From Nitrosarchaeum sp. (GTDB lineage Archaea; Thermoproteota; Nitrososphaeria; Nitrososphaerales; Nitrosopumilaceae), in NCBI GenBank assembly GCA_021414365.1, contig JAIOOR010000006.1, positions 62,001-126,000 of the forward strand: a stretch of 64,000 nt of DNA, in the 5' to 3' direction. Both the position numbers and the translations under genes were made by a program. The notes beneath the pieces were generated by a model, which saw only the letters and a list, made by a program, of their open reading frames with translations, was not told the origin of the DNA and ran no database searches. The stretch's first letter is position 1. Each line of letters starts with the position of its first letter. This document shows positions 35,828 through 37,900 of this stretch, piece after piece.

Positions 35828-36214
35828 TTATTGATGTTTTTGACTTAGTTTTATGGTTTGATACGTCCATTCACGACCAGTCCTTATTCTGTCTATCTTA
35901 CCTTTAGAAGAAAATCTAGACAAATATGTAGAGATAATACTTAGTTTTACAGGCTCGTTATATTCATCTTCATACTTTTCTAGTATATTTGTAGATGTGA
36001 ATTTTCCCATAGGGAAGAATTTATCAACAATATGCCATATTTTTGAGCCTGTAGAATCCATATTGGTGGTTTCTTGCTCTTCTTCAATATTCATCAAGTC
36101 CATCATTTCAAATATTTTTAAGACCTTTTCACGAGTAACATTACCTTCTAATTTAATGTCATACCGTGCTCCATCAGCATCTTCCATATCAATTCTAATG
36201 CGTTTTTTAGCCAT
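35828..36214 (-). CDS. Winged-helix-like hypothetical protein
   Basis: A 128-residue protein. The N-terminal part has a short beta pattern (KRIRIDMEDADGARYDIKLEGNV), followed by an acidic linker (NIEEEQETTNMDS). The C-terminal half resembles a winged helix: IWHIVDKFFPMGKFTSTNIL, KLSIISTYLSRFSSKGKIDR and a WTYQTIKL wing. DNA binding is therefore likely. It reads away from the origin region, whose left edge is its promoter. Confidence 0.6.
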   Translation of the reverse strand: MAKKRIRIDMEDADGARYDIKLEGNVTREKVLKIFEMMDLMNIEEEQETTNMDSTGSKIWHIVDKFFPMGKFTSTNILEKYEDEYNEPVKLSIISTYLSRFSSKGKIDRIRTGREWTYQTIKLSQKHQ

Positions 36215-36374
36215 CTTTGAGATCTATGAGGATCGAATGTTAACAGTTGAATTGATCCCAGAATATTTGTTAACTAAGAGGTTTGTTAACATTGACTGCC
36301 TAGGTCACGCCTAGCCATTTTTTTGTTATTAACATAGCTAATTATTCAATATTTTAGTTTATTAGATATATCAT

Positions 36375-36403
36375 GCCTGGAGTGGAAATGAGGGGGTCAA
36401 AAT
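36375..36403 (+). repeat. Origin recognition box (ORB-like) copy 1
   Basis: Twenty-nine bases beginning GCCTGGAGTGGAAATGAGGG and ending GGTCAAAAT. The core G/AGTGGAAAnnA.GGGGT resembles the archaeal ORB, with its G-rich string at one end. It shares 26 of 29 bases with copy 2, and lies 62 bases start to start from it in the same direction. Confidence 0.75.
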
Positions 36404-36436
36404 AAGGATATTCATATTGTTAACATCCATCTTAAC

Positions 36437-36465
36437 GCCTGGAATGGAAATAAAGGGGTCAAAAT
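36437..36465 (+). repeat. Origin recognition box (ORB-like) copy 2
   Basis: Direct repeat of copy 1, beginning GCCTGGAATGGAAATAAAGG and ending GGTCAAAAT, with three base differences, all G to A. The long near-identity, well beyond a short core, argues for functional constraint or recent duplication. Confidence 0.75.
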
Positions 36466-36528
36466 GACCTTTTTTGGAGTTTTTTTAACACAAACTTAAC
36501 AATTTGTTAATATGGTAATTCAGGTTAA

Positions 36529-36555
36529 CTCACACACCTATCTTTCCACTCTATC
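36529..36555 (-). repeat. Origin recognition box (ORB-like) copy 3, inverted
   Basis: On the minus strand it reads GATAGAGTGGAAAGATAGGT then GTGTGAG. It shares the GAGTGGAAA core with copy 1 and the GGTGTGTGAG end with copy 4, with which it forms an inverted pair around the AT-rich segment. Confidence 0.65.
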
Positions 36556-36668
36556 TTTTTATTTAATTTTTTTTATGAAAAATCTAAAATCTAACTAAAA
36601 ATAATTAATTACAAACTAAACTAGAATAACTATTCTATTCTTTACTCTCTACTACTAAGTATCATTAT

Positions 36669-36696
36669 GTTAGGAGTAGAAACAAAGGTGTGTGAG
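36669..36696 (+). repeat. Origin recognition box (ORB-like) copy 4, overlapping the orc1 start region
   Basis: Reads GTTAGGAGTAGAAACAAAGG then TGTGTGAG. It ends one base before the orc1/cdc6 ATG at 36698 and includes the alternative GTG. Orc1 binding here could both open the origin and repress its own gene; this autoregulation is an inference. Confidence 0.65.
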
Positions 36697-36697
36697 T

Positions 36698-37900
36698 ATG
36701 TCTGATCCAATTGATAGATTACTTGATGCAGCTGAATCTGGAAAATCAATAATAAAAAATAGAGATATTCTTCATTTTACATACATTCCCAATATTATCC
36801 AACATAGAAACTCCGAACAAGAACAAGTAACACAATCATTACTACCCATTCTTAAACACTCAAGACCATCCAATCTATTAGTATATGGCAAACCTGGAAT
36901 TGGAAAAACACTTGTTGTGAAAAAAGTATTAAACAAAATTCAAGAGAGAGTAGAAAAATCTAAATTTCCAATTAAATTAATTTATTCAAACTCTAAAGAG
37001 GAAACAACTCTTTATGGATTATTGGTAAGTTTTGGAAGGCAGTTAGGCATGACTGATAAAGAATTACCAGGAACAGGCCTAGCAATTAGTGAGGTATTTA
37101 AAAGAATATTGAATAATATAGACACATCTAAAATCAATGCAATTTTTGTTATTGATGAAATTGACTATCTTGCGCAACTAGTCTCTAAAACAGGGAAAGA
37201 CATCTTATACCAACTTACAAGAGCAAACGAACGCCTAAAACAAGGTTCTTTGACTTTGGTAGGAATCTCAAACGATCTTACATTTAAAGAAAAACTTGAT
37301 CCTAGAGTAATTAGTAGTCTAGGCGAAGAAGAGATAATATTTACAAATTATGATAGAGACCAAATTTATAAAATATTGGAGGAACGAATCAAAGAGGCAT
37401 TTATTCCTAATTCTGTTGAAGAGTCAGCTTTGAATCTTTGCGCAGCTTTGGCTGCTGCTGAACACGGAGACGCTAGAAGGGCAATTGATTTAATTCGTGT
37501 TGCAGGAGAAATTGCCGAAAGACAGCAATCAGACAAAGTAACACAAGATCATGTAAGAGAAGCATCTCTAAAAATTGAAGAAAATAAAGAAGAAACATCT
37601 TTAAAATCATACCCACTTCATGAGAAACTTGTTATTCTTGCAATAATGAAGGCAGGAGGCTCTTCTACAGGAGAGATTTATTCATCTTACAAAGGACTAT
37701 GCAAAGTAGTAGGGCGAGATGAATTAACACAAAGGCGAATAACTCAAATGCTTAGTGAAATTGAATTATCTGGAATTATCACTGGAAGATTAATTCATCA
37801 AGGAATACATGGAAGAACAAAAAAATACAAACTTACAATTTCTCCTGAAACGATAAAAAAAACCTTCAAAGACGATCTAACTTTGCAAGATATTGTTTAA
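36698..37900 (+). CDS. Orc1/Cdc6 replication initiator
   Basis: About 400 residues. The AAA+ domain has Walker A YGKPGIGKTLVVKK (about residues 65-78), Walker B IFVIDEIDYL, sensor 1 TLVGISNDLTF, and sensor 2/arginine region HGDARRAIDLIRVAG. A C-terminal winged helix (about 305-395, ending RTKKYKLTI) binds ORB sites. It recognises origins and loads MCM. The ATG at 36698 is preferred over the GTG at 36692. Its 3' end overlaps DP1 convergently by 24 bases. Confidence 0.96.
   Translation: MSDPIDRLLDAAESGKSIIKNRDILHFTYIPNIIQHRNSEQEQVTQSLLPILKHSRPSNLLVYGKPGIGKTLVVKKVLNKIQERVEKSKFPIKLIYSNSKEETTLYGLLVSFGRQLGMTDKELPGTGLAISEVFKRILNNIDTSKINAIFVIDEIDYLAQLVSKTGKDILYQLTRANERLKQGSLTLVGISNDLTFKEKLDPRVISSLGEEEIIFTNYDRDQIYKILEERIKEAFIPNSVEESALNLCAALAAAEHGDARRAIDLIRVAGEIAERQQSDKVTQDHVREASLKIEENKEETSLKSYPLHEKLVILAIMKAGGSSTGEIYSSYKGLCKVVGRDELTQRRITQMLSEIELSGIITGRLIHQGIHGRTKKYKLTISPETIKKTFKDDLTLQDIV

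Follow-up and report, generated by a model that had tools for sequence, protein, structure and literature searches.

A probable oriC1-type replication origin upstream of orc1/cdc6 in a relative of Nitrosarchaeum

Known archaeal origins and the orc1 locus

Origin oriC1 of Sulfolobus has inverted ORBs around an AT-rich unwinding region beside orc1 (ORB3-DUE-ORB2, with the motif ucm) and an additional ORB outside the inverted pair, and requires both ORB2 and ORB3 (PMC12141716). In Haloarcula hispanica, oriC1 requires both inverted ORBs together with their terminal G-strings, which are extended, and includes an inner G-rich inverted repeat (PMC3936714), while the four ORBs of Aeropyrum pernix Ori1 place four initiator sites around an AT-rich region (PMC8287685). 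MCM is thought to load between opposing ORBs (PMC6742236), and archaea are known to have replication neighbourhoods in which cdc6 lies near PolD genes (PMC2643942). Closer to the organism considered here, marker-frequency analysis places a single origin in Nitrosopumilus maritimus (PMC4010727). ORB repeats ahead of the cdc gene have been noted at the predicted origin of Nitrosopumilus and Ca. Nitrosocaldus cavascurensis, in passages that neither map nor orient the elements and that mention no second motif, linked gene or inversion (PMC5797428). The origin as such is thus not a novelty. The locus described below shares with Sulfolobus oriC1 the inverted elements around an AT-rich region beside orc1 and the extra element outside them, with A. 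pernix the four initiator sites around an AT-rich region, and with the predicted origin of its own group the ORB repeats before the cdc gene. Unlike Sulfolobus oriC1, it has two direct ORBs outside the inverted pair, no ucm above chance, a lost TCCA half and an array of TTAACA motifs; compared with Haloarcula, its strings read GGTGTGTGRGT and there is no inner G-rich repeat.

Here, we focus on a stretch of 64 kb (the window; G000:C2:62001-126000) from a genome of 1.88 Mb in 26 contigs, where L and G label orc1 loci and genomes, and f1 is the window's family. The orc1/cdc6 gene (36698–37900, plus strand) is the sole initiator gene above the family cut-off in the genome. Its product is 94% identical to the Orc1 of L001, the nearest genus being Nitrosarchaeum, and aligns along its entire length with two DNA-binding initiators, 2v1u and 2qby. 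A gap of 483 bp separates orc1 from a divergent gene for a 128-aa protein (35828–36214), and the PolD subunits DP2 and DP1 flank the locus, one on each side. In some relatives (G059, G080, G073 and G154) there is a further, more distant orc1-type gene, which may derive from mobile elements.

The earlier note had read this gap as an origin, and that reading is strongly supported: it is very probably the chromosomal replication origin, of archaeal oriC1 (ORB) type, in which Orc1 and MCM would play their usual parts. The evidence comprises the elements themselves, their uniqueness in the genome, a conserved geometry, a TCCA-to-TGGA change, the instability of the spacer between the inverted elements, the modular behaviour of the inverted pair with its spacer and the ORB-DUE-ORB literature. 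Nucleotide skew was examined in sampled stretches of three single-contig relatives; in G006 an AT or keto-skew breakpoint coincides with orc1 to within the 140-kb sampling, and the breakpoints of G053 and G145 lie ~0.1–0.26 Mb from orc1, a coarse placement that is off by 8–16% of the genome. These breakpoints are supportive of an active origin, not decisive.

Four ORB-like elements and their conservation

Four ORB-like elements lie next to orc1, in two classes: C1 and C2 follow GCCTGGARTGGAAATAAAGGGGT (class A), while C3 and C4 follow GAGTGGAAATATTGGTGTGTGGGT or GAKAGGAAACAAAGGTGTGTGAGT (class B) and bear the extension GGTGTGTGRGT. C1 (GCCTGGAGTGGAAATGAGGGGGTCA; 36375–36403, plus strand) was located by repeat comparison, alignment and genome pattern search, and C2 (36437–36465, plus strand) is its direct repeat, identical at 26 of 29 positions and 62 bp away from start to start, just as the earlier note had stated and the repeat comparison confirmed. 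C3 (36528–36551, minus strand), whose G/T string GGTGTGTGAGT points left, and C4 (36674–36697, plus strand) form a 24-nt inverted repeat that is 88% complementary, with their G-rich ends facing outward, away from the AT-rich spacer. The note had this inverted pair correctly but set its members 113 AT-rich bases apart, a figure that presumes longer arms; with arms of 24 nt the spacer measures 122 nt. It also had C4 overlapping the start region of orc1, and C4 does lie there, ending exactly at the ATG (36698) that it directly abuts. Not noted then were the division of the elements into two classes, the array of TTAACA motifs and the linked gene for a winged-helix protein. The AGGTG of C4 may double as a Shine-Dalgarno sequence; C4 as a plain Shine-Dalgarno was rejected, since GGTGTGTG is also found in C3, which has no such role, and C4 is retained in loci where it lies away from the start.

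When the class A and class B patterns were searched with up to three mismatches, exactly these four sites were found in 1,875,056 bp, and reversed-pattern controls in the same search gave no matches; the elements are thus not a product of chance, and they are restricted to the origin locus. The right part of the ORB, GAAAYRAAGGGGT, is matched in full by C2 and with one change (G for A) by C1, whereas the class B copies end in GGTGTGTG in its place. The left half, TCCA, is absent from all four copies in the window, which counts against the origin reading; C1 and C2 have TGGA, the TCCA half having become GCCTGGA. The motif at the head of C1 and C2, YGCCTRG, recurs in a TGCCTAG/CGCCTAG pair at 36297–36314 on the plus strand.

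Conservation was followed in 80 orc1 loci of the family, with 79 upstream regions aligned (the window's included), and in orc1 upstream regions from 13 families of the order, where an orc1-type match was found in 148 of 151 genomes and exceeded the cut-off in 138. C1–C4 rank among the most conserved positions of the family alignment, and a strict core pattern detects at least one element in 69 of the 80 loci. Wherever C1 and C2 were both matched strictly (55 loci), they are spaced by 61 bp (n = 18) or 62 bp (n = 37). Alignment of orthologous upstream regions, the check proposed in the note, bears it out: the layout recurs throughout the Nitrosopumilaceae, and further families of the order show it too. 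It is window-like in f1 and f7 and varied in f2, f8, f9 and f11; f12 retains C3 and C4 only, and the upstream regions of f6 gave no clear element set. Family f2 (L095, L096, L097, L106 and L107) has a third direct ORB 40–41 bp before the usual pair; intervals of ~41 and ~61 bp are each consistent with an integral number of helical turns. Outside the order, ORBs in plus/minus/plus arrangement occur in families such as f16, f31, f36 and f49. Element positions in L017 are odd, an assembly artefact of an N scaffold gap with duplicated origin sequence.

Family f7 provides the link to described origins. Most of its loci have C1 and C2 with no or one mismatch to the common ORB motif TCCASTKGAAAYRAAGGGGT (PMC4164010), at a spacing of 60–63 bp, and the elements of the window are therefore positional equivalents of textbook ORBs. 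The f7 positions orthologous to C1 and C2 carry TCCA. Judged from sequence comparison, TCCA-to-TGGA is a derived change, the YGCCTRG motif having replaced the TCCA half in the window's family.

The inverted pair, its spacer and rival readings

Between C3 and C4 lies the AT-rich spacer (36552–36673; 83% AT), a probable duplex unwinding element marked by composition, stability and conservation. It is among the least stable 0.3% of equal-length stretches in the 64-kb window, and its most conserved block spans 36590–36650. The suggestion of an unwinding site between the inverted elements is strongly supported by conservation, layout, uniqueness in the genome, duplex stability and the ORB-DUE-ORB literature. 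Since C4 abuts the start codon, the orc1 promoter is likely to fall inside the spacer in the window. A ucm site was rejected here: the best match to Sulfolobus ucm (ATTATACAAAC) between the inverted elements is 8/11, a score no better than chance that 85% of shuffles also reach. The spacer midpoint holds an exact TACAAACT (1.4% by shuffle), a word chosen after the fact. If at most two G are allowed, the longest plus-strand stretch in the window (36525–36658, 134 nt) coincides with C3 and the spacer; G-poverty as a conserved unwinding signal was rejected, as other genera do not retain the asymmetry (L120, L123 and L136).

The inverted pair and its spacer behave as a unit in relatives. At locus L120 (genus g4; G039:C9:418200-419500), C3-spacer-C4 is inverted in place, such that the first element is of C4 type and the second of C3 type, and its spacer matches that of L123 far better as the reverse complement (100 identities, 12 mismatches and 10 gaps) than directly. 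Four sister genomes of g4 have the usual orientation and the inversion is seen in one assembly (L120), where recombination between the inverted elements presumably produced it. In most of f1, C4 directly adjoins the orc1 start, but it is detached from it in L078, L120, L121, L136 and L164; it lies ~100 nt upstream in L120, L121 and L164, with a leader of ~100 nt between C4 and orc1 shared by L120 and L164, and in L136 an ORF of ~100 codons intervenes. Given the inversion in L120 and the separation by leader or ORF in L120, L164 and L136, the cassette looks like an autonomous core that is selected as a unit, rather than an orc1 leader.

These observations bear directly on whether the elements might serve as an operator only, with Orc1 bound to C3 and C4 around the orc1 promoter to repress its own gene and replication starting elsewhere. 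The position of C4 against the start codon, which probably places the promoter in the spacer in the window, would suit such an arrangement, and bacteria offer a precedent in the autoregulation of DnaA (cited in PMC3936714). However, the cassette is inverted in L120, removed from the start by ~100 nt at three loci and separated from orc1 by an ORF at another, and the four-element geometry kept across the order would be left without explanation; we consider an operator-only function very unlikely. Mutations in origin elements of Sulfolobus did not change Orc1-1 levels (PMC12141716). Autorepression of orc1 through copy 4, which the note had suggested, is not needed by the data, with that copy ~100 nt upstream in several lineages and behind an ORF in one; it is possible as an added function. 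The same arms, 88% complementary and with AGGTG in C4, could in principle pair as an RNA stem that masks the Shine-Dalgarno in a long orc1 leader. Against this, C3 and C4 match no better within genomes (0.755) than between them (0.758; 4691 of 5000 permutations reach the within-genome value), each arm holds its own consensus, such a stem would enclose a loop of 122 nt, and several lineages have C4 detached from the start. The hairpin was rejected for arms that do not co-vary, and we regard it as scarcely credible.

The locus might also be a dormant or secondary origin, with the active one elsewhere; Haloferax mediterranei has a dormant origin (PMC4595724), and the skew breakpoint in sampled G145 is 0.16–0.2 Mb from orc1. 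A single orc1, a single element set and strong constraint across the order all speak against dormancy, as does the single origin of N. maritimus (PMC4010727), and we hold it to be highly improbable.

A second motif, a linked gene and a proposed mechanism

In addition to the ORB-like elements, the gap contains an array of TTAACA/TGTTAA motifs (36238–36511, sites at 36238–36245, 36268–36273, 36284–36291, 36329–36334, 36418–36425, 36485–36490, 36496–36501 and 36505–36510). Eleven matches fall in the gap against 0.86 expected, a count reached by none of 2000 shuffles, and three closely spaced TGTTAA occur at just one other place in the genome. The array is strong in four families only, with means of 10.2 in f1, 8.0 in both f2 and f7 and 13 in f3 (one locus), against <1 expected; f4–f6 and f8–f13 have no clear excess.

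The gene divergent from orc1 (35828–36214, minus strand, single copy) encodes a predicted winged-helix protein of 128 aa, which has no Pfam or NCBIfam match and nothing significant among sequences of solved structures. Its model (pLDDT 76 on average and near 90 for residues 60–120) places a winged-helix fold in the C-terminal half, and winged-helix regulators make up most of its fold matches, of which none falls below E 0.001. Of 250 genomes sampled from the phylum (Thermoproteota), 159 encode the protein, and its gene is found in 78 of the 80 f1 loci, the remaining two being cut short upstream; outside the order, 30 of 63 genomes, from 12 of 24 families, have the gene near orc1 and divergent from it. 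The gene has thus kept its place next to the origin in much of the phylum. Neighbourhood alone suggests an origin role for this predicted DNA-binding protein. As a certain binder of the array it was rejected, and it is only a candidate, because the gene is also present in families that lack the array (f9, f10 and f12).

In the mechanism that we propose, one Orc1 would bind each element with fixed polarity, and the inverted pair C3/C4 bracketing the AT-rich spacer would guide two MCM helicases to that spacer, one for each fork; by analogy with characterised origins, C3 and C4 are the predicted MCM loading sites. The direct pair would supply auxiliary sites, ~six helical turns apart and so on the same face of the helix, at which additional Orc1 molecules strengthen or organise the complex. 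An oriented platform is a plausible predicted role for C1 and C2, whose ~six-turn spacing is kept in f1 and f7. The TTAACA array would most likely be the site of a second DNA-binding protein. We tentatively suggest, as a possibility about which we are rather doubtful, a two-protein origin in ammonia-oxidising archaea, in which a dedicated origin-organising protein, possibly the divergent winged-helix protein, would bind the array and play a part like that of UBP (Sulfolobus) or IHF (E. coli). No description of the array or the linked gene was found in the open-access papers that the search covered, which does not in itself prove novelty.

The result is a base-level origin map for a microbial group that ranks among the most abundant, and its geometry is kept across the order. 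To judge from the natural inversion, the core may function as a module whatever the orientation of the gene. The authors of the UBP study ask if origin proteins of an analogous kind exist in other archaeal lineages (PMC12141716); a countable, conserved array and a candidate gene make this question testable in Nitrosopumilus or Nitrososphaera.
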